NCBI GenBank assembly: GCA_027485995.1
Contig: JAIXPW010000183.1
Coordinates: forward strand, 1-64,000
Source: Verrucomicrobiaceae bacterium
Lineage (GTDB): Bacteria; Verrucomicrobiota; Verrucomicrobiia; Verrucomicrobiales; Akkermansiaceae
DNA length: 64,000 nt
Direction of reading: 5' to 3'
Shown: positions 13,857 through 32,263 of the stretch, one piece after another
How the letters are laid out: the number at the start of each line of letters is the position of its first letter
How positions within the stretch are numbered: the stretch's first letter is position 1
Notes under the pieces: generated by a model
Seen by the model: the letters and a program-made list of their open reading frames with translations, nothing else
Told to the model about the DNA's origin: nothing
Databases searched by the model: none
Position numbers and translations under genes: made by a program

Positions 13857-14120
13857 CGCAACCTCGCGCAGAAGACCCAGTCTCATCGCTTGGTCCGGGC
13901 CTTCGGCTTCGGATACCGGATCCGCTTCTCCGTTTTCCCACCAAGCTTGCGGTAGGTCTCTGAAGACAACCTTTCCGTAACCAGCTTCGGGATTGCCGAG
14001 GTCACGGAAAACAGTCGTCATCTGAAAGAGATCCGCTAGCCTGTGGGCGAATTCGCTTTTTGTTTCTGATGACCAGTCGCCGGAAGAGCCGGTGGGCTGG
14101 CTGTTCCTTTGATTCCGATC

Positions 14121-17100
14121 ATGAATGCTCTCAAACCCACCCGCGCCTTTTTGAAGCTTGCCGCCGCCTGGTTTTTCCCGGGACTGGCACTCGCCCAGTA
14201 CAACTACTTCAATGTTCCGAGCAATTCGGACTGCATCATGCAGGACTACCGCTCGCCGAATGTGCCGGGCGGGATCTATGATGCGATGCATCAGGATTAT
14301 GTGAGCAGTTCGGACGGTGGCACCGGTTATTTCTACGGCGGCTACACCCACCAGAACAACGGCGGGACCAACACCCTGGTGCAGTATGTCTGCTGGCCCG
14401 CGAGTGGTGGGTTCGCCCCGTATTCGCAGCAGATCCCGACCTTTGCCGGAACCAACATGGTCGGCTACGCCCAGATCGGCGAGGGCAGCAGTTGCGCGAT
14501 CAAGGGCTACTGGCCGCAGTTCAGCTCGAACCTCTGGACCCGCGAGGTGGTCCGCTACTGGCAACCGGCGGATGGCACGCCGCACGTCGGCTATCAGGGC
14601 ATGTGGATGAAGGATCCGACGACCGGATTCTGGCACCATCTCGGCACCTTCATGTATCCCTTCGCGGTCACCGGGGTGAACGGGATTGGCGGCTGGCAGG
14701 AAAATTTCACCGGATACACCGGCGACTACAAGGTCGCCCGCGCCGGCGGCTACTACCACAAGAGCGGCGCCTGGCAGCGCGCCAACCAGATCAGTTTCAC
14801 GTCGAACGGAAAGACCTACTCCACCACGGATGCCACCTATCCGACCAGCTTCGCCCAGTCCGATGTCGGCCCGAGTTTCTCGGCTCAGTACAACAACCCC
14901 AACACCGTCACGCTGACGGATCAGCCCGCCCTGCCGACCTTTGATCCGATCGTGATCAACAGCCCGACGGCGACCGTCAGCGGTTCGCAGCTTCTCGTGC
15001 AGTGGCAGATGCCGCTGACCAGTTCGCCGCAACTCAGCTACAAGATCGAGGTCTTCAACAACTCCGCCTACACGGGCGCGGCGGCGATCACCTTCACCGA
15101 CAATGAGCCGGACACCCGACAGAAACTCCTGAACATCTCCGGCGTCGCCACGCCCTATGTGCGGCTGACCATCACCGATATCTTTTATAACAACAGCACG
15201 CCAGTCCTCATCACCCCGACTACCGCCACCCTCAGTCCGGCGGCCTCGGTCACCGGCGCGGTCGCGGGATTGAACTACAAGTACTACCAGGCCGCCTCCG
15301 GCACCTGGACCGTGCTGCCGGATTTCACCGCTCTGACCGCCACCCGTCAGGGTGCGGTGAACTTCCCGGATGTGACACCGCGGCTGCGGCGCACGAATTA
15401 TGGGTTCACCTACACCGGTTACTTCAACGCCGCCACCAGCGGTCTTTATGCGTTCACCCTGCGATCCGGGGATGGCAGTGCGCTGGTCATCGATGGAACG
15501 ACGGTCATCGACTTCGACGGCCTTCATGACTCCACCCAGTTCAAGAGCGGTGGCATCGCCCTGGCCGCCGGACCCCACACCCTCACGCTGAGATATTTCA
15601 GGGGCAATCCTCCCGGAGTGAACACCACCGTTTACAATGACGGCATCGGCCTTTCCTATGAAGGTCCGGGAATCAACGCCGCCGATGTGCCCGCCTCCGC
15701 CTTCACGCGGGTGGCCGCCGGCAGCGAGCCGAGCGTCGCTCTAACAGCTCCGGCGAATAACGCGTCGGTGGTCAACTCCAGCACCGGCGTCAGTGCCGCG
15801 GTCACCGCCAACGGGGCCACGATCAACAGCGTCCAGTATTTCCTGACCGACAACTACTCCTACTACCCAAGGCCCAACAAGGCACCGGATTACTATGTGG
15901 GCCAGGATGCCACGGCTCCCTACGACCTGACCTCGATGGTCTGGACGTCGGCCAGCAACCCGATCCGCGCCCGCGTGGTTTATAACGGCACGAACACCAT
16001 CGACTCGCCTGCCATTTCCATCACCACCACGAACCCCTCCCTGGGCGACTGGATCTGGAATCCCCTGGAAATGCACAACTATCCATCCGGAGCGAGCGTG
16101 CAGGGCAACAAGGTCTCCATGATCGGTGACGGCATGAACCTGATGAGCCGCCAGGTCACCGGCGATTGCACCTTGATCGGCCACCTCGCCGACATCACTC
16201 CGAACACGGCCGGGCCCGACGGCATTTTACCGGAAGGCGATTGGCGCGGAGGGATCATCCTCCGCAGCAATGCCAACACGACGATCGGCGAGCCACTCGG
16301 CAACGGCAGCGGCACCCGTTTCGTGGCGCTCTTCAGCTCGGTGGACGGCGGCACCTATTTCCAGGATGACTCGATGACCAACGGCAACGGCGATGCCAAC
16401 CGCTGGTCCTCGAATCTCGGCGGCAGCAACAAGTGGTACAAGATCCAGCGGGTGGGAAACCTGTTCACCAGTTATGTGTCGGCGGACGGCGTAACCTGGA
16501 ATGCGGTCAACAGCATCACGATCGCGAACTTCGGTGCCACGATCCACGCCGGTGTCTTCATCCACGCGGTGCAGTCCTTCAACCCCAACCTCCATCGCGC
16601 CAGCTTCGATGGCTTCAGCCTGACGGGCGCGGGAGTGGTCGGGCCGGCCAGTGTCTCCATCAGTCCGCAATCCACGGCCGTGGTGAAAGGCATGCCGGTC
16701 ACCTTCTCGGCCTCGGTCATCGGCCCGGTGCCGACAGGCTATCAATGGAAGTTCAACGGCACCGACATTCCCGGTGCCACATCCTCCACCTACACGATCC
16801 CGTCCGTCGCCGCCGCGAATGCCGGCAGCTACTCGGTCGTGGCCAATGCCGTGACCAGCTCCGCCGCAGACCTGACGATCAGCACTCCGCCTGGATCCGG
16901 TGTGTGGACCAATGCCTCCGGCGGACCCTGGACAACGACCGGAAACTGGAGCGGCAACTCCATCGCCAGTGGCACGGATGCGGTGGCCGATTTCAGCACC
17001 CTGAGCCTCGCGGCCAATGCCGCCGTCACCCTCAACGGTGCGAGGACCGTCGGCGCGATGGTGTTTGATGACCTCGATGCCACGAAGAACACTTGGACGG

Positions 17101-20100
17101 TCAGCCAGAACACAAGCGGATCCCTGACCCTCGCCACGAGCAGCGGAACGCCCGCGATCTCGACCAATGTTCCCACCACGATCAGTGCGGTGGTCGCCGG
17201 AACCCAGGGGATGTTCAAGAATGGAACGGGAGCGCTGACGCTTTCCGGAGCAAGCACGATTACCGGAACCGTGCAGGTGACGGGAGGCACCCTGGAGGTC
17301 TCCAACAAGTCCGGCGACTGTCCCTACAGCGTGAGTTCTGGGGCGACCCTCAGGATCGGATACAACACCGGTGGTGGATACGCGAACACCAACCTGGTGA
17401 TCAACGGCGACGGGGTGGCGGCGACCACGGGCTTCTACCTCGCGGGTGGAAGGACCTACAATGCCAGCGGCCAGATCATCCTCCAGGCCGCGCCGACGAC
17501 GATCCGTCAATACGGCAGCGGACTGGCAAAGATCGGCACCTTTGATGTCAACGGCAACGGGCTCTGGTGCACCGCCAACGCCTCGGGTTCCGTCATCGAT
17601 GCCAACGTCCAGATCGTCAGTTCGGGATTCGGCATGTCGATGGACATCGATCCCGGTGCAAGCACACTGTCCGGTGACCTCACGATCAACGGATCCCTGA
17701 ACATTGGAAGCCTTGGCTTTTACAAGCGTGGACCCGGTTCCGTCCTCTTGAAAGGCGCGGCAACCACCAGCAATACGGCTGTCAGGGCGCTGGAAGGAAC
17801 CGTGCTCTGCGGAGCCACCAACTGCCTGGGAACCGCGGCCGCAGTCCCGGTCTCCTCCGGTGCGAAGCTTTCCTTGAACGGCTACAGCCAGACCGTGGCC
17901 TCGGTCACCGGTTCGGCGGGCGGAACGATCTCGTTCGATGGCGCGAACACCCTCACCGCCACCACGGCGACCCTCGGCGGAGCCCTTCAGATGACGGTCA
18001 ACAAAGGCGCAACGCCAAGCAGCAGTCGTCTGGTCAGCACCAATGCCCTCGCGTATGCGGGAACACTTTCGATTGCAATCCAAGGGGCCACTCCCCTCGC
18101 TCAGGGCGACTCCTTCCAGCTCTTCAGCGCCCCGAGTTACAGCGGATCATTCACCAGCATCGCCCTGCCCAATCTGCCGGTTGGTCTCGCGTGGGACACC
18201 AGCGCGATCGCGACCACCGGGTCGATCAGCATCATTTCCGCAGGAAACAGCCAGTGGAATGGCGGCGGAGCGGACACCAACTGGAGCAGCGCCCTGAACT
18301 GGAATGGGGTGGCACCCGCCAACAACCAGGTGCTGACCTTTGCCGGAACCACCCGTCCGACTTCGGTCAACAACCTCCTGACCTCCGTGGGCCGGATTGT
18401 GTTCAGCAACGGCGGCTTCTCTCTTTCAGGCACGGCGGTCACGCTTCAATGGGGCATCGGCCACCAGGCGGGAAACAACACCTGGGGAGTGCCCACAACG
18501 TTGCTCGCCCCGCAGTCCTACACCAGCGACGCAGGCACCCTGACCATCAGCGGAACCACCGCGAACGGCGGATTCGATCTCACCCTGGATGGAGCAGGAA
18601 ATCATGCGGTCTCGGGCGTGATCTCGGGCACGGGCGGTCTGGTGAAAAGCGGCACCGGCACGGCGGCGCTCTCCGCCAAGAACACCTACACCGGCCTCAC
18701 CACGATCAACGGCGGCGTCCTCAATCTAACAGGCAATGGCGGCAGCACCGGCACCATCCGCGGCACCGCCACCGCCAACTCCGGAGCAACCCTTCGTCTC
18801 AGCACCGGTGACGCCACCGGCTACAGCGGGGGATCCGCGGCGCTGACCGTGATCAATCTAACAGGTGGCACGCTCAACGTGAACACCACCTCCAACCAGA
18901 CGCTCGGCAGCGCCGTCATCAACATGACCGGCGGCACCATCAGCGGACTCAGTGGCGGCAACATCGACTTCTTCGGCGGCGGTTCGGCCCTCAACACCTT
19001 TGCCTCCAGCACCACCTCGGTCATCAGCGGCGTCCAGCTTTCGCCCCTGCGCCAGGGCAGCACGACCTTCAACGTGGCCGCCGGGACCACGGCCTCGGGC
19101 ATTGATCTCGACATCTCCTCCGTCCTGAAAGGCGCGGCCGCCGGCGATGCGGTCGGGGGCGTGCTGTTCAAGGATGGAGCCGGAACAATGAGGCTTTCCG
19201 GTGCCAATACCTACGCGCGGGCCACGACGGTCAGCGCCGGAACCCTTCTCGTGAACGGATCACTCGCGGCGGGCAGCACGGTGACGGTCTCGTCAGGCGC
19301 CACCTTGGGCGGAAGCGGCACGATCAATGGCCCGACCACCGTGTCCAGCGGCGGAGTCATCGCCCCGGGAAGCCTCGGAGTCGGCACCCTGACCCTCAAC
19401 AACACGCTTTCGCTTTCCGGAACAGCAAGAATGGAGATCGGCAAGACCGGAGCCACCCTCACCACCGACCGGATCAGCGGACTGACCACCGTGACTTATG
19501 GCGGCACCCTTGAGGTGACGAAAACCGGAACCACCGATCTGGTGGCGGGGGATTCGTTCCAGTTGTTCAGCGCGACCACCCGGACGGGTTCCTTTTCAAC
19601 CATCAGTCTCCCGGTTCTGACCACAGGACTGGTCTGGGACACCACCGCGCTTTCCACCACCGGGACCATCTTGGTGGCGAAGGGCCCCCAGACCATCACC
19701 TTTGATGCCCTCGCCGGGAAAACGTTTGGCGATGCGGCTTTCATCCTGACCGCCACGGCCAACTCCGGACTCCCCGTTAGCTATTCGAGTTCCGACACCT
19801 CGGTCGCCACAGTTTCTGGAAGTACGGTGACAATCGTAGGTGCGGGCTCGACGACGATCACCGCCTCGCAGTCGGGCAATGCAAATTACCTGGCCGCCAC
19901 AAGTGTCCTGCAGACCCTCACGGTCGGGAAGGCCGCGCAGACCCTCAGTTTCGGAACCCTGGCGGCAAAGACTTTCGGCAATGCGGCCTTCAGCCTCACT
20001 GGGACCTCAAGCTCTGGTCTTTCCGTCAGCTATTCGAGTTCGAACACGGCCGTCGCGACCGTTTCCGGAAGTACGGTGACCATCGTCGGTGCGGGCTCGA

Positions 20101-22397
20101 CCACCATCACCGCCTCCCAGTCCGGCAACACCAACTACCTCGCCGCGACGAGTGTTCCCCAGACGCTCAGCGTGGGACAGGCAGCCCAGACGATCAACTT
20201 CGGAACCCTCGCATCGAAGACCTTTGGCGACTCCACCTTCAGTCTCGGCGCGACGGCGACCTCCGCTCTCCCAATCACCTATGTGAGTTCGAATCCTGCG
20301 GTCGCGACGATTTCGGGAAATACGGTAACTCTCGTAAGTGCGGGCTCGACCACCATTACCGCCTCACAGCCCGGCAACACCAACTACCTCGCGGCGACGA
20401 GCGTGCCGCAAACCCTGACCGTCAATCAGGCCTCACAGACGATCAACTTCGGGGCGCTCGCATCGAAGACATTCGGCGATGCTTCTTTCAGTCTGGGCGC
20501 GACGGCGACCTCTGCGTTGCCCATTACCTACTCGAGTTCCAACACAAGCGTCGCGACCGTTTCCGGAAGTACGGTGACCATCGTCGGTGCGGGCTCGACC
20601 ACCATCACCGCCTCACAGCCCGGCAACACCAACTACCTTGCCGCAACCAGTGTTCCCCAGACGCTGACGGTTGGTCAGGCCTCACAGACGATTAACTTCG
20701 GAGTCCTGGCCTCAAAGACCTACGGCGATACCTCCTTCAGCCTTGGTGCCACCGCCAGCTCCGGTTTGCCCGTCAGCTACGCGAGCTCCAACACCAGCGT
20801 CGCGACCGTTTCGGGAAGTACGGTGACCATCGTCGGTGCGGGCTCGACCACGATCACTGCCTCACAGCCCGGCAACACCAATTACCTCGCGGCAACCAGT
20901 GTTCCTCAGACGCTGACGGTCGGTCAGGCCTCGCAGATCATCACCTTCGGGACGCTCGCTTCAAAGAACTTCGGCGATGCCGCCTTCAGCCTTGGAGCAA
21001 CCTCGACCTCTGCACTGACAATCTCCTATGCCAGCTCAGACCCTACCGTTGCCACGGTCACCGGCAACACTGTCACGATCGTCGGCGCAGGCTCAACGAC
21101 CCTCACCGCCTCACAGCCCGGCAACATCAACTACCTCGCGGCAACCAGTGTTCCCCAGACGCTGACGGTCGGTCAGGCCTCACAGACGATCAGCTTCGGG
21201 GCGCTCGCATCGAAGAACTTCGGAGATGCCGCCTTCAGCCTTGGCGCAACCTCGACCTCTGCACTGACGATTTCCTATGCCAGCTCAGATCCAACCGTTG
21301 CCACGGTCACCGGCAACACCGTCACGATCGTCGGTGCAGGCTCAACGACCCTCACCGCCTCACAGCCTGGCAACACCAATTACCTCGCGGCAACCAGTGT
21401 TCCTCAGACTCTGACGGTCGGTCAGGCAACACAGACGATCAACTTCGGAGCACTCGCATCTAAGACCTTTGGCGACGCCACGTTCAGTCTCGGCGCGACG
21501 GCGACCTCCGCTCTCCCAATCACCTATGTGAGTTCGAATCCTGCGGTCGCGACGATTTCGGGAAATACGGTAACTCTCGTAAGTGCGGGCTCGACCACGA
21601 TCACCGCCTCACAGTCCGGCAACACCAACTACTTCGCAGCGTCCAGTGTTCCCCAGACGCTCACGGTGAATCCGGCCAGCGCCCTCGTCAGTCTCGGCAA
21701 TCTCACCGCCAACTACGATGGAAGCGCCAAGCCGGTGTCCGTCACCACCACTCCAGCCGGCCTATCCGTGGCAGTGACCTACAACGGCTCCTCAACCGTT
21801 CCGATCAACGCGGGCAGCTACGCGGTGTCCGCCGTGGTCACCGATCCCAATTACCTCGGCAGCGCTTCCGACACCCTGGTGATCGTCAATGTCCTCACCG
21901 TGGTCGGAAATGAAACCCGCACCCTTGCCAATCAAACAACTTCCTTCCAGAGCCTTCTCAATGATGGCACCCTCGTCATCAACGGCGGCTCGATCCAGAT
22001 CGACGGAAATGCCGCAAATCACGGCGTCCTGCGCCTGACCGGCAACGCGACCCTCAACGTGACCGGCTCCTTCACCAACACCGGAGTGATCGACATCATC
22101 AACTGGTCCGGCACCCTGCCACCGGAGCTCATGAACTCCGGAACCATCCTCGATCGTTCGTTGATCCGGGTCCTTTCCTCCCAGGCCACGGGCGGTCAGT
22201 TCACCCTCACGGTTCCGGGCTTTGCGGGTCATCTCTATCAGCTCGAGTCCCGCCCATCCCTCGACGTGCCCTGGGCTGCGCTCGGATCGCCCCAGCCAGG
22301 AACCGGAACCACGATCCATCCGCCCTCCATCACCTTCAATCCCTCCATGGATGGGCCGCGGCGATTCTACCGCGTCGTGGTGACGCCTTCCCCTTGA
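14121..22397 (+). CDS. Giant secreted protein: DUF3472, PA14, autotransporter-type strands and eight 83-aa repeats
   Basis: 2758 residues from the ATG at 14121, opening with a signal peptide ([17 protein letters not shown]). Domains in order: a DUF3472-like module (about 25-260); PA14 (about 380-525, with [17 protein letters not shown]); an Ig-like segment; a laminin-G/DUF1349-like sandwich (about 640-840); an Ig domain; a long stretch of autotransporter-associated strand repeats (about 930-1855, e.g. [21 protein letters not shown]); eight 83-residue repeats (about 1856-2519); an MBG-like domain; and a C-terminus [16 protein letters not shown] ... RRFYRVVV. No outer-membrane barrel or sorting signal is visible. 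It is likely exported and carbohydrate-binding or adhesive. Its export route beyond Sec is unclear. Confidence 0.8.
19688..21679 (+). repeat. Eight tandem 249-bp coding repeats
   Basis: Eight units of exactly 83 codons inside the 2758-aa protein, each beginning near [15 protein letters not shown] and ending QTLTVGQA. The period was checked between unit 3 (20187) and unit 4 (20436): 249 bp. Units 3 and 8 share an identical block of 116 bp (20238-20353 and 21483-21598, 1245 bp or five periods apart). This points to recent unequal exchange or gene conversion. Confidence 0.9.
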
Positions 22398-22505: not shown

Positions 22506-23141
22506 ATGAAACGAACCCTGCTCCTTCTGCTTCCCGTCATCGCCATCGCCGTCGCCGCCCCGGAGGCTGGCCAGAAATCAAAGGAGGAGGCGATCGGCCT
22601 TCTCTGGCAGGAATCGGTCACGGCCGAGACCAACGGCGACTCCGCCCTCGCGCTGGAGAAACTGATGGCCTACGCCAAGAACGGCGGCGACACCTACCTC
22701 GCCAACCTCCGCGCAGGATGGTTGAACTACAGCGAAAAGAAGTACGACGACGCCGGAAGATACTACGCCACGGCGGCGAAGCTCCAGACCAACGCTCTAA
22801 ACCCGCGCCTCGGGCTGCTGAACGTCGCCCAGGCCAAGGCCGATGTGGCCACGGCCACCGCAGCGGCGGATGCGGTGCTGAAGATCGAGCCGACCAACTA
22901 CCGCGCGCTGATGGCCTATGCCTGGGGGTGCTTTCAGGCGAAGGACCATCGCCGGGCCGGCACCGCCTATCAGCGGGTTCTGTCGATGTATCCGGAGGAT
23001 CAGGACGCCATCAGTGGGGCCGCCTGGTGCTCGCTCTACATCGGCCAGAAGCGCGAGGCGATCGATGGCTTCCGCCGCCTGATGAGCCTGAATCCCGAAT
23101 ACGCCAATCTCCGCCAAGGGTTGGAGATGGCCACGAAATGA
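22506..23141 (+). CDS. Secreted TPR-type protein, first gene of the PqqD/ATP-grasp cluster
   Basis: 211 residues with a signal peptide (MKRTLLLLLPVIAIAVAAPE). The rest is helical with TPR spacing, for example LANLRAGWLNYSEKKYDDAGRYY, NYRALMAYAWGCFQAKDHRRAGTAY and DAISGAAWCSLYIGQKREAI, about four repeat units. TPR proteins act as binding scaffolds. It is 18 bp upstream of the PqqD-like gene, so it probably belongs to the same transcript and could hold a periplasmic partner or product of the cluster. The AT-rich stretch at 22427-22450 just upstream, beyond the preceding terminator, is the likely promoter region. Confidence 0.75.
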   Translation: MKRTLLLLLPVIAIAVAAPEAGQKSKEEAIGLLWQESVTAETNGDSALALEKLMAYAKNGGDTYLANLRAGWLNYSEKKYDDAGRYYATAAKLQTNALNPRLGLLNVAQAKADVATATAAADAVLKIEPTNYRALMAYAWGCFQAKDHRRAGTAYQRVLSMYPEDQDAISGAAWCSLYIGQKREAIDGFRRLMSLNPEYANLRQGLEMATK

Positions 23142-23159
23142 CCTTCATCCCGCGCCGTC

Positions 23160-23423
23160 ATGAATCCACTTCCATCCTCCGAGCCTCCTTCAAGGCTGAC
23201 CGACCTGATGCTGAACGACCGGGGCTTCGCCTTCGATCCCAACACTGGTGAAAGCTATCAGCTCAGCACCACCGGACTCACCTGCCTGCGCGGCTTGCAG
23301 CAGGGAGCCTCGGTCGACGAACTGGTCGATCGCATCACCGCGCGGTGGGAGGTGGACCCGATCGCCGCACGCTGTGATGTCGACGCCTTTCTCTGGGACC
23401 TCCAACAACTTTCATGGCTGTGA
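23160..23423 (+). CDS. PqqD-like small protein (possible peptide-recognition chaperone)
   Basis: 87 residues with the PqqD pattern: a short strand pair around GFAFDPNTGESYQLSTTG, then LTCLRGLQQGASVDELVDRITARWEVDP and a final helix VDAFLWDLQQLSWL. PqqD domains bind precursor peptides of ribosomally made natural products (RiPP recognition elements). PqqD-like proteins also occur in systems with HPr-kinase-related proteins. The gene overlaps the next one, an ATP-grasp enzyme, by 10 bp, which implies translational coupling. No precursor peptide candidate or radical SAM enzyme is adjacent. The family call is by pattern and neighbourhood; the ligand is unknown. Confidence 0.7.
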   Translation: MNPLPSSEPPSRLTDLMLNDRGFAFDPNTGESYQLSTTGLTCLRGLQQGASVDELVDRITARWEVDPIAARCDVDAFLWDLQQLSWL

Positions 23424-24487
23424 ATCGCATCCGAATCGCAGTCACCGGCATGCATCGCGGCGAGAACCCGCAGCCGGGCTCGTCGATCGTGGCCGCCATC
23501 CGCCGCCGCTGGCCGGAAGCCTTCATCGTCGGCCTCGTCTATGATGCCTATGAAAGTGGGATTTATGCGGAGGAGGGTCCCGATGTCTGCCACACGATGC
23601 CTTATCCGACCGCTGGTCTAACAGCCTGGCTTTCCAGACTTGGGGAAATCAGCTCCCTCGATCCCTTCGATCTGCTGATTCCGACCCTCGACGCCGAGAT
23701 TGCGCTGCTGGTCGGTGCCATCGGAAAACTGGAGTCGCTCGGCATCCGGGCGAGGCTGCCCGAGGAGAAAACGCTGCTCCGTTGCAGCAAGTCAAAGCTG
23801 CCCGCTCTGGCGGAATCCTGCGGCCTTCGAGTGCCTGCCACCGCGGTGGCCCGCGACGTTTCCGAGGCGCTCGAACAGGCAGAGGAGCTTGGCTTCCCGG
23901 TCTTCGTGAAAGGCCAGTTCTATGACGCCACGCGGGTCTCCACACCCGCTGCTTTGGCGGCGGCAGGTTCCTCGATTCTGGCCGACTGGGGACCGCCTCT
24001 CATCCTGCAGGAGCCGGTGCAGGGAAATGAGTTCAATGTCCTGGGCCTCGGCGATGGCCAGGGTGGCTGCCTCGGGCACTGTGCTGTTAGAAAAATGATC
24101 CTCAGCGACAAGGGCAAGGGCAACGGCTCGGTGATCGTGCGCGATCCCAGGCTCGATGAGATCACCCGGCGCGTGATGGCGGAAACGAAATGGCATGGAC
24201 CGTTTGAACTCGAGTTCATCCGTGACCGCCGCGATGACGACTACCGCCTGATCGAGATCAACCCGCGCTTCCCGGCCTGGGTTGGATTTCCCGCCCAACT
24301 CGGCGCGAACTTTCCGGCCGCCTGGGTGGAGTGGATGATCACCGGCAAGCGTCAGTCGCTGCCGGACCTGCCTCCCGGGAAATTTTTCATGCGTCATCAG
24401 ATCGAGGTCACCGGAGACATGGGCGAATTGTCCGCCGTGCTCGGAGCCTCAATGGAATCCTCACCCCGCATCTCACTCGTGTCATGA
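23414..24487 (+). CDS. ATP-grasp ligase
   Basis: 357 residues. The N-terminal third is a Rossmann-like pre-ATP-grasp part (RIRIAVTGMHRGENPQPGSS). The ATP-grasp core shows FPVFVKGQFYDATRV for nucleotide binding, LILQEPVQGNEFNVLGLGD, and the metal-binding end FELEFIRDRRDDDYRLIEINPRF, with its E, E, N and R in the expected order. ATP-grasp enzymes join a carboxylate to an amine or thiol through an acyl-phosphate. The start overlaps the PqqD-like gene by 10 bp and the stop overlaps the next gene as ATGA. It therefore acts with both. The substrate is unknown; a link to peptide or amino-acid conjugation is inferred from the neighbours. Confidence 0.85.
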   Translation: MAVNRIRIAVTGMHRGENPQPGSSIVAAIRRRWPEAFIVGLVYDAYESGIYAEEGPDVCHTMPYPTAGLTAWLSRLGEISSLDPFDLLIPTLDAEIALLVGAIGKLESLGIRARLPEEKTLLRCSKSKLPALAESCGLRVPATAVARDVSEALEQAEELGFPVFVKGQFYDATRVSTPAALAAAGSSILADWGPPLILQEPVQGNEFNVLGLGDGQGGCLGHCAVRKMILSDKGKGNGSVIVRDPRLDEITRRVMAETKWHGPFELEFIRDRRDDDYRLIEINPRFPAWVGFPAQLGANFPAAWVEWMITGKRQSLPDLPPGKFFMRHQIEVTGDMGELSAVLGASMESSPRISLVS

Positions 24488-25956
24488 ACAAGGAACCTTA
24501 TACTCCGCCCAGCATCCGCCGCGTATCCCAGGGCAGCGCCAATCCACAACGGCTCGGCCGGGTGCCGGTGATGGACTCGATCGATGGCGTGTTCGTCTCC
24601 GACCTGATCCGCCAGCACGGCAGCCCGCTGTTCGTGTTTTCGGAAAGCAACCTGCGCGACAAGATCCGCGAGGCCCGCGAGGCCTTCGAGTCGGTCTATC
24701 CGGAGGTCCAGTTCGCCTGGTCCTACAAGACGAACTACCTCAATGCAATCTGTCGGCTTTTCCACCAGGAGGGCTCGATCGCCGAGGTGGTCTCGGGCTT
24801 CGAGTACGAGAAAGCCCGTAGCAACGGCATGCCGGGAGACAAGATCATCTTCAACGGCCCTTGGAAGGACCCGAAGTCGCTGCGCCGCGCCGTGGAGGAG
24901 GGCGCGATGATCCAGATCGACAACCGCGATGAAATGCTGGCCCTGGCCAGGATCGCGGACGAAAGGAAGGCCGACCTCCAGGTGGGTGTGCGCATCCATG
25001 TCGATACCGGCACGCATGCGGTGTGGTCGAAGTTCGGCTTCAGCGTCGAAGACGGCGAGGCCCTGCGGGTGATCCGCTGGATGCGCGACCACACACGCCT
25101 GAAGGTCCGCGGCATCCACTGCCATGCAGGAACTTTCCTGCTGGATGCGAATGCCTACGTGATCGCCACCGAGAAGGTGGTCGAGCTGGCGGTTTCCTCG
25201 GAGGAGTCAGGAGCCGGTGTGATCGAGTATCTCAATCTCGGCGGCGGCTTTGCCTCCCATGCCCGGCTTCATGGCCAGTATCTGCCTCCCGAGCAGGCCA
25301 CGCCCTCCTTCGATTCCTATGCCGAGGCCATCTGCGGCACGATCAAGCGCCGCTGGCCGAGTGGCCACAAGCTGCCGAAGCTGTTCCTCGAAACCGGTCG
25401 CGCGATGGTCGATGAGGCCGGCTATCTCATTTCCAGCGTCGTCGCGGTGAAGCAACGCTCGATGGACCCTGGTGCATCCTCGCTCGCCGCCTATGGCAAG
25501 GGTGCGGTGACGCCTGGCAACGTCCTCGGGGCCTACGGCAAGGGTGCGGTGCCCGCCGCCGTCGGCACGCAACGCAATGCAGTGGTGCTCGATGCCGGGA
25601 TCAACATCCTCTACACCAGCGCCTGGTATCAGCCCACGATCCATCCGGCCTCGACGCCAGCCTCCGCCGCGCAGCCGACGACGGTTTACGGTTGCCTCTG
25701 CATGAACATCGATGTCATCCGCGAGGAGGCCTCTCTTCCTGATTTGAAGGCCGGTGATCCCGTCGTCCTCCATCCGGTGGGCGCCTACAACCTCACCCAG
25801 TCGATGCAGTTCATCACCTATCGTCCAGCGGTCGTGATGATCGACCCTGATTGCGGCGTGCATCTCATCCGCCGTCGCGAGGTGCTGGAGGACGTGCAGG
25901 GGCCGGAGGAAATCCCAGATCACCTGATGGAGAAAATTCTAAGCACGAAATTCTAA
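24484..25956 (+). CDS. Fold-type III PLP decarboxylase (diaminopimelate/ornithine decarboxylase-like)
   Basis: 490 residues from the ATG at 24484, which overlaps the preceding stop as ATGA. The PLP lysine sits in FAWSYKTNY (Lys82). HCHAGTF, LNLGGGFASH and FLETGRAMVDEAGYL are phosphate- and cofactor-binding motifs. GCLCMNIDVI carries the active-site cysteine, and HPVGAYNLTQSMQFI is the C-terminal barrel motif. Relatives decarboxylate amino acids such as meso-diaminopimelate, ornithine or lysine. An unusual insertion around residues 335-360 contains the word AYGKGAV twice, 14 residues apart. The last five residues and the stop are encoded by the arm of an intergenic palindrome (25941-25970). 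Confidence 0.85.
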   Translation: MNKEPYTPPSIRRVSQGSANPQRLGRVPVMDSIDGVFVSDLIRQHGSPLFVFSESNLRDKIREAREAFESVYPEVQFAWSYKTNYLNAICRLFHQEGSIAEVVSGFEYEKARSNGMPGDKIIFNGPWKDPKSLRRAVEEGAMIQIDNRDEMLALARIADERKADLQVGVRIHVDTGTHAVWSKFGFSVEDGEALRVIRWMRDHTRLKVRGIHCHAGTFLLDANAYVIATEKVVELAVSSEESGAGVIEYLNLGGGFASHARLHGQYLPPEQATPSFDSYAEAICGTIKRRWPSGHKLPKLFLETGRAMVDEAGYLISSVVAVKQRSMDPGASSLAAYGKGAVTPGNVLGAYGKGAVPAAVGTQRNAVVLDAGINILYTSAWYQPTIHPASTPASAAQPTTVYGCLCMNIDVIREEASLPDLKAGDPVVLHPVGAYNLTQSMQFITYRPAVVMIDPDCGVHLIRRREVLEDVQGPEEIPDHLMEKILSTKF

Positions 25957-26100
25957 ATTCGAAACGAAGAGGTGGCAGGAAAAGAAATCCAACCACGGAT
26001 GGACACGGATAAACACGGATGAGAAAAATGAAGAGCGTTTCAACAAGAACAGTCAGGCTGGGTCTTCGTTTCGGATTTAGGATTTAGAATTTCGTGCTTT
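25941..26100. repeat. Nested palindromic element at the end of the decarboxylase gene
   Basis: Outer arms AAGCACGAAATTCTAAATTC (25941 onward) and its near reverse complement ending at 26100 enclose a central AACCACGGATGGACACGGAT stretch (25994-26023). The central words belong to a different formulaic family (see 41688-41792). The left arm overlaps the coding end of the decarboxylase gene. A related half-arm is at 43799-43830. Confidence 0.75.
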
Positions 26101-26107
26101 CTCCCAA

Positions 26108-28282
26108 ATGATTCCCTTTCCCCAGAGCGCCCACCGGGTCTCCGATGAAAGCTCGCTGGCGAAGTCGATCCTGGCGGCGATCCCGAGGGCGTATGCGGTG
26201 GTGTTTTATTCCACCGATGTGCGCTTCGGCTGGGCGCTGCTCGCGTTGAGCCTGCTGGTGCCGCAGGTGGGCCTCGCCGGTTTGCTGGGGGTGCTGCTTG
26301 CCGCGTTGACCGCGTGGCTTCTCGGCATCGACCGTTCGATGATCCGCAGCGGCTTCCTGTTGTTCAATCCACTGCTCTCATGCAGCGCGCTGATGCTGAT
26401 GGCGTCGAACTCCGGCTGGTCCCACAGCGGCACCGTGCTGGTTCTGGCGGCTGCCTCGGTGGGGTCGATGATGCTGACCTTCGGGCTTCAGGGATGGATC
26501 GGCTCCAGGGTCGGCCTTTCCGTGCAGAGCCTGCCTTCGGTGATCGTGACCGGCCTGCTGCACTACGCCGGCCTGGCCGCGATGGGCACCGGTTGGAGTC
26601 TTCCCGAACCGATGTGGACCCAGGTCGATCTACGATGGATGCCGGAGTTCCTCAGAGCGTTCTTCCATGCCTTCTCGGCGATGGTGTTCCAGTCGTCCGA
26701 CCTGGTCGGAGTCATGATCTATGTTGCCTTTGTGCTGGGTTCTCCACTCGGTGGAATGATGGCCACGATCGGCTATGCGGTCGGGGCCATGACGCTGCAC
26801 CTGCTGGGCCTGCCGACCGATGTGAATGGAATCTCCTGGTGCGGCTACAACTTCCTCCTCACCGGTGTGGCGCTCGGTGCGGGTTATCATGTGCCGAACC
26901 GCGCCAGCCTGTTGCTCGCGGTCGCGGCCTCGGTGGTGACGGCACTGGTGGCGGTGGCCCTGAGCGTGATGCTCTCCCGCCTCGCCCTTGCTCCTGGTGC
27001 CCTGCCTTACAATCTCGTCGTGCTCACCACGATGGCCGCCCTGCGCCTGGTGCCAAATCCCGGCAGCCTGCTGACCTCGCCCTGGACCACCCTCCAGCCC
27101 GAGGGGGTGGCGCGACTGGTGCAGATCAACCGCCTGCGCTTTCCGGATTTCCATAAGCCCGCCCTGTTCCTGCCCTGTGCCGGTGAAACGGTCATCACCC
27201 AGGGCTTCGATGGAACCCTCACGCATCAGGGACCCTGGCGTCATGCCCTCGACTTCGAGGTGCCTGGCGGCTCTGGTTCATGGGATCTGGGCGACGGGCT
27301 GCTTCAAAGTTTCAGGATCTTCGGTGCCCCGATCCATGCCCCGATCGATGGCACGGTGGTGGCGGTCGAGCGACTCGTTCCGGACAACCTTCCGGGACAC
27401 AACAACCCGGAAAGCAACTGGGGCAATCATGTCATCCTGCGCAGCACACACGGCTTCCACGTGATGCTCTCCCATTTTCTGCGGGACTCGATCCTCGTGG
27501 CTCCGGGCCAGCTCGTGAAGGCGGGTACGGTCCTCGGATCCTGCGGAAACTCGGGGCGGTCGCCGGTTCCCCACCTTCATGTCCATGCCCAGGCGGGACC
27601 CCATGTCGGAGCACCCACGCTGCCCTTCGTGCTCAAGCACTACGTCGAGCGTACTTCCCCCGAAAGCCCGCCGATCTATCATCTGTCCGGTGTCCCGAAG
27701 GCCGGATCGATCCTGCGCCCGGCCAATCCTTCGGCTGCGCTGCATGCCTGTTTCACCGGCTGGCTGCCCGGACTTTATCACTACCAGAACGGCGACAGCA
27801 CCGAGGTGATCCAGCTCGACTTCGATGAAAGCGGCCGCTTCCGACTCGAATCCGCTGCCCACAATGAGCGGCTGAGCCTTCATCTAACAGAAGGAGTTCT
27901 CTATGCCACGCCCTTCGAAGGCCACTCCAGCGGAGTCTTGTCCCTGCTCGCGATCGCCCTGGCCCGCGTGCCCTGCATCGAGGATCCCCAGGTGAGCTGG
28001 CAGGACGTCGTGCCCGCTGCGCCCTTTCTTCGTGGCCACCGGCGGCTTTTCCACGATGTCTGCGATCCCTTCCTGAACGTCGCCGTGCTTTCCTATCGCT
28101 ACTCGGTTTCCTCCCTTGCCGACGGCTTCCAGATCACGGCGGACCTCGAAGACAGCAAGTGGCAGGACCACGACACTCCGAAGCAACTCATCGCCGAAAT
28201 CCGCGGACGCCACGCCATCGTCAGCCTCCAAGGCGAGACCTGCGGAGGCCGGAAGATTGGCGTGAAGCTTGTTCGGTATTAG
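26108..28282 (+). CDS. Urea-transporter-type channel fused to an M23 metallopeptidase-like domain
   Basis: 724 residues. The first 340 are polytopic and resemble bacterial urea transporters, with two related halves (RSGFLLFNPLLSC and SWCGYNFLLTGVALG) and LPYNLVVLTTMAAL. Residues about 350-500 form an M23/LytM domain: HALDFEV (first metal ligands H and D), HVMLSHF and the closing PHLHVHAQ. The residual 220 residues are beta-rich and unrecognised. The metal ligands look intact, so peptidoglycan or peptide cleavage outside the membrane is possible, as is a non-catalytic fold. It follows the decarboxylase after a repeat-filled 151 bp gap on the same strand. The substrate of the channel is unknown. 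Confidence 0.8.
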   Translation: MIPFPQSAHRVSDESSLAKSILAAIPRAYAVVFYSTDVRFGWALLALSLLVPQVGLAGLLGVLLAALTAWLLGIDRSMIRSGFLLFNPLLSCSALMLMASNSGWSHSGTVLVLAAASVGSMMLTFGLQGWIGSRVGLSVQSLPSVIVTGLLHYAGLAAMGTGWSLPEPMWTQVDLRWMPEFLRAFFHAFSAMVFQSSDLVGVMIYVAFVLGSPLGGMMATIGYAVGAMTLHLLGLPTDVNGISWCGYNFLLTGVALGAGYHVPNRASLLLAVAASVVTALVAVALSVMLSRLALAPGALPYNLVVLTTMAALRLVPNPGSLLTSPWTTLQPEGVARLVQINRLRFPDFHKPALFLPCAGETVITQGFDGTLTHQGPWRHALDFEVPGGSGSWDLGDGLLQSFRIFGAPIHAPIDGTVVAVERLVPDNLPGHNNPESNWGNHVILRSTHGFHVMLSHFLRDSILVAPGQLVKAGTVLGSCGNSGRSPVPHLHVHAQAGPHVGAPTLPFVLKHYVERTSPESPPIYHLSGVPKAGSILRPANPSAALHACFTGWLPGLYHYQNGDSTEVIQLDFDESGRFRLESAAHNERLSLHLTEGVLYATPFEGHSSGVLSLLAIALARVPCIEDPQVSWQDVVPAAPFLRGHRRLFHDVCDPFLNVAVLSYRYSVSSLADGFQITADLEDSKWQDHDTPKQLIAEIRGRHAIVSLQGETCGGRKIGVKLVRY

Positions 28283-28287
28283 ACTTC

Positions 28288-28403
28288 ATGATGAACATCG
28301 AACTTCCAACATTGAACATCGAAGTGAAGAGATAGAAGAAGTTCTGCGCCTTCAACCTCTTCCTTCAATGTTGAACGTTCAATGTTCGATGTTCGACGTT
28401 CAA
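28288..28403. repeat. Palindromic GAACATCGAAC repeat overlapping a gene end
   Basis: Left part contains TGAACATCGAACTTCCAACA and right part TTCGATGTTCGACGTTC, inverted relative to each other with a central GAAGTTCTGCGCC stretch. Its right arm includes the stop codon of the minus-strand phosphoesterase gene (28400-28402). Related copies are at 31100-31135 and 55441-55473. Confidence 0.75.
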
Positions 28404-31039
28404 TCCTCCTCCTCCTCCTCTCCTTCCTCAACCCCATTCGGATCCAGCTTCAGTCCGAGCGCCTTCAGTCCTTTTCCATGTGGGCCGAAGTAGGTGGCGG
28501 GAAAGGGTTCGTCGCCATGGGTGGTGGACCAGACCCAGCGGCTGAAGACGAGGGCCTCGTCGTCGATGCGGTCCGGGGCGGAGAAATCGAGATCAAAGGT
28601 CTTCGGAGCCAGCATCGACTGCGCCTTGGTGGGCGCGTCCTTGGGGTCCGGGTTGGTTTCGTTCAAGGCCACATCAGACGTGCGGCAGGTGAAGGGGGTG
28701 TAGTCCGGTTGCTCCTGGAAGCACTCCGACATGACTGGTGACAGCGCGACGAGCTGGTTCATCGGCGGCACGCCGAAGATGCGGCAGATGGTGTGCAGCA
28801 CCGAGGACTGGTTGTAGAAGCGGCTGATCACCTGGCCTCCTCGCTTGGCATAGGGGCTTGCGATCAGGCAGAACGAGCGATGGCCATCGACATGATCGGC
28901 TCCGGTCTGCGGGTCATCCTGGATCGAGAAGATTGCCATATCTTTCCAGAACGGGCTCTTGGTCAGGCCCTCCATCACCCGTCCAAGCGCGAGGTCGTTG
29001 TCGGCAACATAGGCGCGGGGAGTCGGCCAGCCCTTGCGGGCATGGTTGGTGTGGTCGTTGGGAAGATAGAGGATGGTGAACTCGGGCATGGTGCCGGCTT
29101 TCTCGAACTCCCCGAGGGCTTTCAGAAAGGCGTCGGCACGGAGTTGGTCGGGGATCGCCATTTCCCATCCGGGATAGCGGAGATCGCTGTACTTCCGCAG
29201 GCTTTCGAGTTTGTATTCGTAAACATACTCCGGCCCCGGCTTCTTCTCGGACCATGGATTGTAGAAATCCTGCCACAGCGGCTTCACGGGCTTCTTGAGG
29301 TTACCCATCTCACCGAAGTTGCGGAATGAAATGCCCTTGCGCAGCAGGTGGTCCCAGATGAATCCGCAGCCAGCATAGGAGAGGGGATCATTGCCGAAAT
29401 CATAGGGTGAGCGCGCGTTGTTCCAGTCCTTCTCGCGATAGGGAGTGGTCAGGCCCTGGACCGTCCACTGGTGGCCCACGCTGGAGAGCACGCCGCTGCA
29501 GTAGTAGTTGTCCAGCAGCACGAACTCATCGACCAGCGCGTGCGTGTTCGGCGTCGTCGCCCGGGGGAACTCACACAACTTCGGATCCGAGTTGCCTCGA
29601 CCGATGTCTCCCAGCACCGGATCGTACTTCTTGTTCTCCTTGATGATATAAACAACGTGCTTGATCGGCGAAGGCTCGCCCACCCGCTCAGGGATGGCCT
29701 TCGGCGCCGCTCCGGTCATCGCCTTGATCTGCGAGCGGACGATTTCCGAGAAACGGAAGCCCTTGCGCGCCTCGTCGCTCAGTTTCGTCAGCTCCGCGGC
29801 ATCGGCTGGAAGCGTGATCTTCTGGAGATTTCCCTGATAGCCGTAGATGTTCCCGACAAAGACGTCCTGGCCCTTAACACAGATGGCTCCAGGATAGCCG
29901 CCCGCGGAAAGAAAGGCGTAGGGCTTCTCCGGCTTTGCGGGGTCGATCATGGCAACCGCGTTGTTTCCCGCGTTCACCGTGAAGACCGTGATGTCGTTCA
30001 CGGCGACTCCGTTGGCCAGACTGCCGTAGGGAAGCGTCGGCTCGGGCTTCACGCCGAGGTGCTTCACGATCTTCCGCGTGGCGATGTCGATGACCGAAAC
30101 GGCATCACCGCTTTCATCGACCACCAGCACCTGCTTGCCGTCCGGAGAAAGCATCATCTCCTCCGGATGGATGCCGGTGGTGATGGTCGCGATGACTTCA
30201 CCGGCCTTGAGATTGATCACGGATACGGTTCCACGCAGGGCCACGCTGCGCTCATCGACCGCGATGTCGGTTCCGGCCACGGTTTCGGTGCGGTCGTTTT
30301 CCTTCGCACGCCGACCGCCGAAATTGCTCACAAAGGCCGTCTTGCCATCGCGGCTCAGCACCACGCCATAGGGGCAGACGCCGACCGGGATGCGATTCGT
30401 GACTTCGCGCGTGGCGAGATCGACGATGGCCACCTCGTTCGCCACGGAAAGCGCGACCACCGCCCGCTTGCCGTTCGGCGTGAAGGCGACACCAAGCGGG
30501 TTCGCGGTCTTGGTCTTGGGTCCGAGCTGGATCGGAGCCTCGAAAGTCAGATGGCCTGCCTCGTCGAGTGTGGCGGGATGCAGTAGCCGGAGATTGCCGG
30601 TGAAAAGGATCCGCGTGCCATCCGGTGACACGGCGATGCCGTGCATCGAGCCCCGGTCGGCCTTGCCATCCGCGTCATTGGGAAAGGGGACCTGCTCGAT
30701 GGCATGGAAGGTCTCGGTATCCACCACACTGAGATGCGTGTTCGATTTCACCACGAGGAACTTCCCGCCGCGCGCCAGGGCCATGCTCATGATGCGACCG
30801 CCCACGCGGATCGAAAGTCCGGCCGGCTTGATCTTATGGCCGGTCTCCGCGAGGTCCGGATGATCCTTGTCATGCACCTTCATCAGCGACCAATCCAGGT
30901 CCTGCCCTTCGACGGCCTGTGACGGATCGACTTGCGTCGTCTTGTCCGGCGACTCCACCGGGCCACGGGTGGGATCGGTCTGGGCGAACAGGGAAGACGC
31001 GGCGACGGCCAGGGCAGCGATGAAAAACCTCGGTTTCAT
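28400..31039 (-). CDS. Secreted YVTN-type beta-propeller phosphoesterase
   Basis: 879 residues from the ATG at 31039, chosen because a clean signal peptide follows (MKPRFFIAALAVAASSLFAQ). Residues about 60-430 are a propeller of repeats such as GVAFTPNGKRAVVALSVANEV and TVSVINLKAGEVIATITTG. From about 455 an alkaline-phosphatase-superfamily phosphoesterase begins (IKHVVYIIKENKKYDPVLGD), with YLPNDHTNH, IFSIQDDPQTGADHVDGHR and SPYAKRGG as metal and catalytic-site motifs. It ends in a run of Glu residues. The family hydrolyses phosphate mono- or diesters such as phospholipid headgroups, outside the cytoplasm. Related repeats flank both ends of the gene. Confidence 0.85.
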   Translation of the reverse strand: MKPRFFIAALAVAASSLFAQTDPTRGPVESPDKTTQVDPSQAVEGQDLDWSLMKVHDKDHPDLAETGHKIKPAGLSIRVGGRIMSMALARGGKFLVVKSNTHLSVVDTETFHAIEQVPFPNDADGKADRGSMHGIAVSPDGTRILFTGNLRLLHPATLDEAGHLTFEAPIQLGPKTKTANPLGVAFTPNGKRAVVALSVANEVAIVDLATREVTNRIPVGVCPYGVVLSRDGKTAFVSNFGGRRAKENDRTETVAGTDIAVDERSVALRGTVSVINLKAGEVIATITTGIHPEEMMLSPDGKQVLVVDESGDAVSVIDIATRKIVKHLGVKPEPTLPYGSLANGVAVNDITVFTVNAGNNAVAMIDPAKPEKPYAFLSAGGYPGAICVKGQDVFVGNIYGYQGNLQKITLPADAAELTKLSDEARKGFRFSEIVRSQIKAMTGAAPKAIPERVGEPSPIKHVVYIIKENKKYDPVLGDIGRGNSDPKLCEFPRATTPNTHALVDEFVLLDNYYCSGVLSSVGHQWTVQGLTTPYREKDWNNARSPYDFGNDPLSYAGCGFIWDHLLRKGISFRNFGEMGNLKKPVKPLWQDFYNPWSEKKPGPEYVYEYKLESLRKYSDLRYPGWEMAIPDQLRADAFLKALGEFEKAGTMPEFTILYLPNDHTNHARKGWPTPRAYVADNDLALGRVMEGLTKSPFWKDMAIFSIQDDPQTGADHVDGHRSFCLIASPYAKRGGQVISRFYNQSSVLHTICRIFGVPPMNQLVALSPVMSECFQEQPDYTPFTCRTSDVALNETNPDPKDAPTKAQSMLAPKTFDLDFSAPDRIDDEALVFSRWVWSTTHGDEPFPATYFGPHGKGLKALGLKLDPNGVEEGEEEEED

Positions 31040-31099
31040 AAGGAGCGGTGAAAGCATGTCGGGAAACTGCAGGGAGTCGAGGAGAAGCGCGGGGGAGAG

Positions 31100-31135
31100 T
31101 TGAACATCGAACATCGAACGTCCAACATCGAAGGA
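31100..31135. repeat. GAACATCGAAC repeat, single arm
   Basis: Reads TGAACATCGAACATCGAACG and continues with TCCAACATCGAAGG. Same family as 28288-28403, so the phosphoesterase gene has a copy at both ends. Confidence 0.7.
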
Positions 31136-31588: not shown

Positions 31589-31999
31589 TCACTCACCTTC
31601 AAACCAGCTCTCGATTCGCAGGCCGGGGATTCTGTCGAAATGGCGGAGGTTTCTTGTGACCAAGGTGAGCCGATGCTCAAGTGCGGTGGCGGCGATCCAA
31701 CAGTCCTCGCTCCCGATGCGTTCTCCGCGACGATCGAGATCCGCTGCCAGATCCGCAGCACGCAGTTGGACCGCCCGGTCCACCGGGAGCCATTGGACGG
31801 CCGGAATGAGCTCACGCTGAAGACGCGCCCAGAAAGACTCCGCATCGTCACGACGCATCGCGCCATATCGGAGTTCGAACAAGGTCACCTCGCTGGCAAA
31901 GACCGCGCTTTGATCCAGTTGTCTCACTGCCGCCATCACGCCCGAATCCGGGGATTTCCGGATCAGTTCGCTGAGAACGTTCGTGTCGAGGAGATACAC
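31589..31999 (-). CDS. vapC: VapC-type PIN-domain toxin
   Basis: 136 residues. The PIN active site is visible: LLDTNVLSEL (Asp5), FELRYG (Glu42), RIGSEDCWIAATAL (Glu98/Asp99) and LVTRNLRHFDRI (Asn117, Asp122). VapC toxins are Mg-dependent RNases that cut tRNA or rRNA when the antitoxin is lost. The gene starts 3 bp after the antitoxin stop, the usual operon form. All acidic residues are present, so it is probably active. The gene lies beside an acyltransferase that is transcribed in the opposite direction. Confidence 0.9.
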   Translation of the reverse strand: MYLLDTNVLSELIRKSPDSGVMAAVRQLDQSAVFASEVTLFELRYGAMRRDDAESFWARLQRELIPAVQWLPVDRAVQLRAADLAADLDRRGERIGSEDCWIAATALEHRLTLVTRNLRHFDRIPGLRIESWFEGE

Positions 32000-32002
32000 G
32001 GC

Positions 32003-32263
32003 TCAGGAATCGGAGAAAGGATCGGTGCGCCGCGAGCCAGCGGACTGCTCGCGGCGATGGTCGAGGGACTGGGAAAAGGTATCGTCCTCGAGCCAGCCGA
32101 CGATGTCGGACAGCCGTTTGGGTTGGGTCGATTCCGCATACGCCACCAGTCGCGCCACCGGTAGGTTGCGCCGACAGACCACAACCTCCTGCCCGGACTC
32201 CGCCATTTCCACGAACTCGGACAATCGCGCCTTCAGATCGGCGATGTTGATCGTTTGGCTCAT
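32003..32263 (-). CDS. Phd/YefM-type antitoxin partner of VapC
   Basis: 86 residues from ATG 32263. The N-terminal Phd/YefM fold is clear: MSQTINIADLKARLSEFVEM, then AESGQEVVVCRRNLPVARLV. The C-terminal half (KRLSDIVGWLEDDTFSQSL) is the toxin-binding part. Such antitoxins repress their own promoter together with the toxin. The upstream open frame to 32710 is not used because the antitoxin fold starts at this methionine and a good promoter lies just before it. Confidence 0.88.
   Translation of the reverse strand: MSQTINIADLKARLSEFVEMAESGQEVVVCRRNLPVARLVAYAESTQPKRLSDIVGWLEDDTFSQSLDHRREQSAGSRRTDPFSDS

Follow-up and report, generated by a model that had tools for sequence, protein, structure and literature searches.

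What could be made, or moved, by a set of genes that places a PqqD-like protein, an ATP-grasp ligase, a fold-III decarboxylase dependent on pyridoxal phosphate (PLP) and a urea-transporter-fold (UT) domain fused to an M23 metallopeptidase side by side? This question is raised by a 64,000-nucleotide stretch of the genome of a Verrucomicrobiaceae bacterium (assembly GCA_027485995.1, contig JAIXPW010000183.1, positions 1 to 64,000; hereafter, the window), in which these genes, preceded by one for a tetratricopeptide repeat (TPR) protein, form five open reading frames (ORFs) at 22506-28282, all on the + strand. The five genes are a tightly conserved operon without a name, whose recurrence is far beyond chance: PqqD, ATP-grasp, decarboxylase, UT and M23 are found together in 97 of 112 loci, and the same order is seen in at least seven phyla (Verrucomicrobiota, Planctomycetota, Pseudomonadota, Bacteroidota, Cloacimonadota, Myxococcota and Fibrobacterota). 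We suggest, with a rough probability of 0.38, that this is a biosynthesis-and-transport operon whose products would ligate, decarboxylate, hydrolyse and export.

Gene order and distribution of the operon

A preliminary description of this DNA, made from the sequence alone, had reported five genes on one strand, three of them coupled by a 10 bp and an ATGA overlap, and had assigned them to the TPR, PqqD-like, ATP-grasp, fold-III decarboxylase and UT-M23 families. The arrangement is borne out by the ORF coordinates and by direct reading of the sequence (10 bp between the PqqD and ATP-grasp genes, ATGA between ATP-grasp and decarboxylase), and the families, assigned here with Pfam and NCBIfam, agree, for the ATP-grasp protein and the M23 part, with the AlphaFold models. 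All five proteins stayed below the cut-offs of the NCBIfam models. In the following list, RRE stands for recognition element of ribosomally synthesized and post-translationally modified peptides (RiPPs), and pLDDT for the predicted local distance difference test.

22506..23141, + strand: TPR protein, 211 aa; Pfam TPR; N-terminal signal-like stretch MKRTLLLLLPVIAIAVAA; periplasmic by prediction
23160..23423, + strand: PqqD-like small protein of RRE fold, 87 aa; PF05402, 4.8e-11
23414..24487, + strand: PRK12767-like ATP-grasp ligase, 357 aa
24484..25956, + strand: fold-III PLP decarboxylase, N-citrylornithine-decarboxylase-like, 490 aa; Pfam Orn_Arg_deC_N, 1.1e-34
25957..26107, no strand: intergenic stretch of repeated elements between decarboxylase and UT-M23, outside the conserved system; parts repeated in the genome
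26108-28282, + strand: UT-M23 fusion, 724 aa; Pfam UT, 1.4e-36, and M23, 2.6e-12
26108..27067, + strand: UT membrane domain, residues 1-320; PF03253, 1.4e-36
27125..28282, + strand: M23 metallopeptidase domain and C-terminal beta domain, residues 340-724, cytoplasmic by prediction; AlphaFold pLDDT 95.6

The loci were collected from two sides. A scan for the ATP-grasp protein in one genome per GTDB species returned 515 relatives, and the best 80 loci were retained; 31 loci in Myxococcota and Bacteroidota were reached independently through UT-M23, and the window completes the 112. When UT-M23 was the starting point, every one of the 31 loci fetched agreed with a whole cluster, 28 of them being complete and 3 truncated at contig ends; full-length fusions occurred in 19 of the 237 Myxococcota genomes and in about 26 of the 296 from Bacteroidota. 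Among the 15 incomplete loci, 13 are cut by contig ends, and only L053 and L082 lack parts despite sequence to spare. PqqD was found in 108 of the 112 loci, and UT and M23 form a single ORF in 96 of the 97 complete ones. The order is constant, with the exception of Chitinispirillum (L116), in which UT-M23 lies upstream. Along PqqD, ligase, decarboxylase and UT-M23 the median gaps of the collected loci are 5, 0 and -3 nt, the last measured to the model start, and the pairwise distance matrices of the operon parts correlate with r = 0.71-0.91. Thus the same order, sought in other genomes, recurs, and the homologues stay together rather than usually occurring apart.

The TPR gene is more mobile in its position. 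A homologue is present in 90 of the 112 loci, 5' of PqqD in most Verrucomicrobiota and Planctomycetota and 3' of UT-M23 in Prosthecobacter, Cloacimonadota, Myxococcota and Bacteroidota, and none was detected in most alpha- and betaproteobacterial loci. UT-M23 is usually coupled to the decarboxylase outside the window, whereas in the window an intergenic stretch of about 150 bp parts the two, with no overlap there. Short repeated elements occupy 25940-26100, with TTCTAAATTCGAAACGAAG-like ends and CACGGATGGACACGGATAAACACGGAT, and 50 matches in its own genome were listed, itself included; the operon was apparently interrupted here by an insertion-like element.

The distribution is patchy: the ATP-grasp protein is present in 24 of 289 genomes of the host's order, and the operon in, for example, 2 of 251 genomes in the Hydrogenophaga family. 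The cluster was seen in all nine g1, g5, g22 and g21 genomes that were fetched. The closest named records to the window are pond Verrucomicrobiaceae bins, with ATP-grasp proteins 94-95% identical. The ATP-grasp tree sorts by phylum, with 8 label changes against a minimum possible of 6, so that the operon looks old, with limited transfer. In two g36 genomes a solo ATP-grasp gene lies close to carB and outside any cluster; the solo relatives at L036 and L037 (45% identity) have this setting. Three other frames for the operon were rejected: anti-phage defence, as PADLOC gave no match; viral carriage, as no operon was found in viral contigs; and plasmid mobility, as there was only one distant match, in Streptomyces.

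No database model names the operon, and no description of it was found in the open-access literature, to which the search was confined, in line with the earlier statement that no pathway with this set is described. The main text of a 2025 RRE survey makes no mention of decarboxylase, M23 or urea. A four- to seven-gene unit kept in fixed order across such distant phyla must serve something worthwhile.

The enzymes, the adaptor and the membrane fusion

The top match of the decarboxylase in the PDB is the N-citrylornithine decarboxylase 7KH2 (1e-71), with the diaminopimelate (DAP) decarboxylase 1TWI behind it (9e-55). K82, H214, C406 and D410, that is, the PLP lysine, the stacking His and the catalytic Cys loop with its Asp, are present in 97 of 97 cluster decarboxylases, and the specificity positions are nearly as constant (T/S378 in 96/97, W381 in 97/97, Y382 in 94/97 and M407 in 97/97). 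In the rhizoferrin enzyme FigC, the specificity helix has T327, T330 and Y331 in place of Asp/Arg, and M355 takes the position of the acidic residue after the catalytic Cys (PMC7857480); these changes at the Asp/Arg/Glu positions of ornithine, arginine and DAP decarboxylases suit an N-acylated amino acid (PMC7857480). The cluster enzymes match FigC at T327, Y331 and C354-M355, and W381 sits at the T330 position. In DAP decarboxylase the acidic residue is a Glu, which together with two Arg holds the distal end of DAP (PMC8277567); both the Arg of the specificity helix and the Glu of the CES loop are absent from the cluster decarboxylase, while the host's own LysA (L001) keeps DAGMNDLIRPALY and CESGD, which is the DAP decarboxylase pattern. 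By its residues, the decarboxylase is therefore FigC-like rather than DAP-decarboxylase-like, which corrects its earlier designation as LysA-like, and since the specificity residues match FigC and not DAP decarboxylase, the enzyme probably acts on an amino acid acylated at the end of its side chain. DAP decarboxylation for lysine was rejected, the genome having a true LysA and the cluster enzyme different specificity residues. The decarboxylase genes of the window (25476-25560; AAYGKGAVTPGNVLGAYGKGAV) and of L028 carry a short tandem duplication that is absent from the other five aligned relatives.

The protein encoded upstream lies just under the Pfam cut-off (PF15632, 1.2e-06, 28.8 against 29.1 bits) and matches the PRK12767 ATP-grasps of NCBIfam (7.4e-15). 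Its AlphaFold model (pLDDT 92.5) has the ATP-grasp fold, for which Foldseek returns 2pn1 first, followed by the L-amino-acid ligases RizA (4wd3) and 3vot, and K166, E267, E281 and N283 are conserved in at least 95% of the sequences. NCBIfam gave no graspetide or other peptide maturase call for the ATP-grasp protein of the window, and no core peptide was found. A plasmid of Streptomyces zaomyceticus (L208:11998-14274) encodes a 758-aa fusion of an ATP-grasp and a fold-III decarboxylase, the former 30% identical to the ligase (4e-23), the latter sharing the Cys-Met motif in its terminal CMEND loop. Because this protein fuses both, it offers independent evidence for a link between the two activities; its locus is possibly a related pathway of Actinomycetota without UT-M23. 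Behind the fusion gene come one for an unnamed protein of 195 aa and one for a fatty-acid desaturase.

The PqqD-like protein is by family profile closest to the leader-binding lasso RREs of the PDB (TbiB1, 2.9e-12; TfuB1, 4.3e-12), with the PqqD of pyrroloquinoline quinone synthesis at 0.024, and thus belongs by fold and family to the leader-binding class; the alternative that its fold might be unrelated to RiPP recognition finds no echo in these comparisons. A partner for it was sought next to the operon. No small ORF common across genera was found within 2.5 kb in any of the collected loci, nor a conserved one upstream of PqqD in Proteobacteria, and the sole family shared by three or more loci, a stretch of sequence, is confined to the Prosthecobacter clade. 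The candidate of a precursor peptide beside the operon was rejected because no small ORF is shared across genera near the loci, and that of the PqqD C-terminus as a LysW-like amino-carrier tail because its end residues are not conserved. Furthermore, no other RiPP enzymes recur among the neighbours, and, as had been noted for this locus from the start, no precursor, radical SAM enzyme or HPr-kinase-like gene lies nearby.

The fifth protein combines two folds of which only one has kept in full the residues of its known function. In the M23 domain, the zinc ligands and catalytic His (H373, D382, H456, H489 and H491) are invariant in 73 sequences, and Foldseek on the model of this part returns M23 folds, the C-terminal beta domain being weakly LolA-like. 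The UT half had been described as a urea channel. The urea filter of dvUT includes E187, T130 and T294 (PMC4357013); when these positions were mapped through hidden Markov model alignments, that of E187 was A, S or T in 86 of 97 sequences, that of T294 was Thr in only 5, and that of T130 was Ser in 81. Urease alpha is absent from 13 of 21 cluster genomes, and no urease genes were seen in the operon neighbourhoods. With the filter residues mostly replaced and most hosts tested lacking urease, the UT half is, as judged from its sequence, not a normal urea channel, and for the same reasons a role in urea nutrition is unlikely and urea coupled to urease was rejected as an explanation. In 15 of 16 cluster genomes the fusion is the only UT-domain protein, and the 16th has also a UT-TPR protein.

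The net charge of the loops follows a positive-inside pattern that places the N- and C-termini of the UT domain inside and its middle loop outside, and L202 encodes the M23 part separately, as a protein of 393 aa whose gene is joined by an ATGA overlap and which has neither a signal peptide nor a transmembrane segment. On these two grounds the M23 domain is probably on the cytoplasmic side. An outside middle loop agrees with the TPRs that are inserted in that loop elsewhere and with the secreted TPR protein. The preliminary description had placed both the fusion and the TPR protein at or outside the membrane, which holds, by prediction, for the secreted TPR protein and probably fails for the M23 domain. 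Outside the operon, Myxococcota have a family of proteins of about 320-410 aa (L203-L206) with about three N-terminal transmembrane stretches and an M23 domain of the UT-M23 subfamily.

A candidate pathway and its competitors

The most economical account of these features would run as follows. The ATP-grasp enzyme would join the carboxylate of a partner to the side chain of an amino acid as an amide, leaving the alpha-amine and carboxylate of that amino acid free, while the PqqD-like adaptor would present or recognise a peptide-like partner. The FigC-like decarboxylase would then strip the carboxylate from the conjugated amino acid, and the M23 domain, held at the cytoplasmic face by the UT domain, would cleave the conjugate. 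Finally, the small released product would exit through the UT domain and cross the envelope with the help of the periplasmic TPR protein and, in several phyla, of an outer-membrane barrel-like protein. Precedents exist in rhizoferrin (ligase, then FigC-type decarboxylase), butirosin (tethered decarboxylation) and pearlins (release by a membrane-bound protease); which amino acid, partner and product take part, how the first three steps are ordered and in which direction transport runs are inferred. The earlier suggestion of a peptide-linked or amine-conjugated compound survives in part, as a ligase plus a decarboxylase fits the active-site evidence but a ribosomal precursor is not conserved next to the operon; the suggestion that the genes sense a compound gained no support.

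Several points weigh against this pathway. The joint action of ligase and decarboxylase on the same molecule in the host is a proposal, and so is outward transport. A cytoplasmic M23 domain is at odds with the usual periplasmic place of M23 and LolA-like folds, and also with its standalone relatives outside the cluster, which are secreted or membrane-anchored. In NCBIfam the decarboxylase of the window scores slightly higher with lysA (226.7 bits) than with FslC (206.0 bits). Neither a conserved precursor nor a conserved carrier peptide turned up near the operon, and no classical carrier protein or scaffold peptide was found beside it, so that the expected partner of PqqD is missing. Finally, the alpha- and betaproteobacterial clusters are mostly without detected TPR and barrel proteins, and the envelope part is thus not universal.

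A first competitor is a pathway of the RiPP or carrier-peptide kind. Here the RRE would bind a precursor encoded in the genome, either remote or too short and variable to detect, the ATP-grasp enzyme and the decarboxylase would modify this precursor, and M23 would set the product free. The proximity of the PqqD profile to lasso RREs, a peptidase with invariant catalytic residues and the logic of pearlins, in which a membrane-bound protease frees the product from a carrier peptide (PMC9303977), all speak for it; we consider it unlikely given the searches for small ORFs around the loci and upstream of the proteobacterial PqqD, the lack of recurrent RiPP enzymes among the neighbours and an ATP-grasp protein without a peptide maturase call. 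Rather less likely is a role in the envelope, with a periplasmic M23 domain cleaving wall peptides, UT importing the fragments, and ligase and decarboxylase processing DAP-containing peptides. Such a role would suit the wall endopeptidases among the M23 relatives, the secreted or anchored standalone forms and the TPR and barrel-like genes adjoining UT-M23, but the positive-inside pattern and the signal-less split M23 point to a cytoplasmic domain, the Arg and Glu that bind DAP are missing from the decarboxylase, and further wall genes do not recur among the neighbours.

A metallophore or siderophore pathway akin to rhizoferrin, in which the ligase conjugates an amino acid, the FigC-like enzyme decarboxylates it and the product is exported across both membranes, appears improbable. 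The best solved relative of the decarboxylase is indeed the N-citrylornithine decarboxylase of rhizoferrin synthesis (PMC7857480), an SBP_bac_5 protein of the peptide/nickel-binding family recurs beside proteobacterial operons, and a HupE/UreJ-like gene, by our reading by eye, follows the operon in L075; nevertheless, no NRPS-independent siderophore (NIS) synthetase, TonB receptor, major facilitator superfamily (MFS) exporter or metal regulator was recognised among the recurrent neighbours. The use of urea or of a small amide, imported by the UT domain as a nitrogen source, would account for the strong UT match in Pfam (1.4e-36), but the replaced E187 and T294 positions in nearly all sequences and the missing urease make it highly implausible, and it leaves the other enzymes unexplained.

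If the pathway of ligation, decarboxylation, hydrolysis and export were true, a peptidase-channel fusion would act on the cytoplasmic face, the UT fold would be used for something besides urea, an RRE would function without a neighbouring ribosomal precursor, and several hundred ATP-grasp relatives would become a testable family with an expected reaction type. In a broader and more doubtful form, the operon may represent a trans-envelope biosynthetic system of a new class, of ancient origin and spread over at least seven phyla. Its RRE-fold adaptor, its ATP-grasp ligase and its N-acyl-amino-acid decarboxylase would build a conjugate, a cytoplasmic M23 domain would cut it and a fused, repurposed UT channel would export the small product.

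Neighbouring genes and known systems

Around the conserved core, accessory genes differ among lineages. A secreted barrel-like or TPR-plus-barrel-like protein adjoins UT-M23 and TPR in Bacteroidota, Myxococcota, Cloacimonadota and Chitinispirillum, the barrel character being a reading of the sequence, as Pfam detects only TPRs in those proteins. A second UT protein, with TPRs inserted between its two UT halves, lies near the operon in Prosthecobacter-type loci and in one Planctomycetota genome (e.g., L055:14718-16187). Prosthecobacter loci have a PaaK-like adenylating enzyme, and proteobacterial loci a secreted DLH-type hydrolase together with the SBP_bac_5 protein. NtrC-type response regulators and kinases recur near some loci and are treated as background, because their positions vary.

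The host genome (5.7 Mb, 84% complete, 269 contigs) has neighbours of its own in the window. Directly 5' of the TPR gene, at 14109-22397, is a gene for a 2762-aa secreted repeat protein, not conserved in the relatives, whose repeats read by eye as Ig-like and autotransporter-associated. Downstream of the operon, at 28400-31114 on the - strand, a YncE-type beta-propeller is fused to a phosphoesterase domain (PF04185, 3.5e-17), a neighbour shared by L039, one of the pond bins, and at 31589-32164 (- strand) the sequence reads as a VapC PIN toxin look-alike with a Phd/VapB-type antitoxin upstream.

Among characterized systems, rhizoferrin synthesis by FigA/FigC (FslA/FslC) of Francisella (PDB 7KH2) shares with the operon the fold-III decarboxylase, the Cys-Met catalytic loop and the Thr/Tyr specificity helix (PMC7857480), and there the decarboxylase acts after a ligase has acylated the amino acid side chain (PMC7857480), as we propose for the operon. 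The route differs in that its ligase is an NIS synthetase and not an ATP-grasp enzyme and its exporter belongs to the MFS, with no PqqD, UT, M23 or TPR. In butirosin biosynthesis, an ATP-grasp ligase, BtrJ, loads the amino acid. The fold-III decarboxylase BtrK then acts on an amino acid tethered to the small carrier BtrI (PMC7857480); the tether is an acyl carrier protein thioester and UT-M23 is missing, while in the operon no carrier protein was found and the small partner is the RRE-fold protein. Pearlins (3-thiaglutamate and 3-thiahomoleucine; TmoA-TmoG) resemble the proposed pathway in that an amino acid is placed on a carrier, modified and freed by the membrane-bound protease TmoG (PMC9303977), but the amino acid is added by an aminoacyl-tRNA-dependent PEARL (peptide aminoacyl-tRNA ligase) to a carrier peptide encoded in the cluster, and neither such a decarboxylase nor UT is present.

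The stand-alone PqqD fold of the lasso RREs TbiB1 and TfuB1 (B1 proteins) is like that of the operon protein, whose closest solved relatives they are; a lasso cluster, however, combines a precursor with a B2 protease and an asparagine-synthetase-like cyclase, and none of the three was found at the operon. Finally, the UT urea channels dvUT and UT-B and the M23 endopeptidases LytM and DipM provide the folds of the two halves of the fusion, and the M23 catalytic residues are intact in the operon protein. Unlike all of these, it has a urea filter that is mostly replaced and an M23 domain that is cytoplasmic by prediction, with both halves fused in one protein of a putatively biosynthetic operon.

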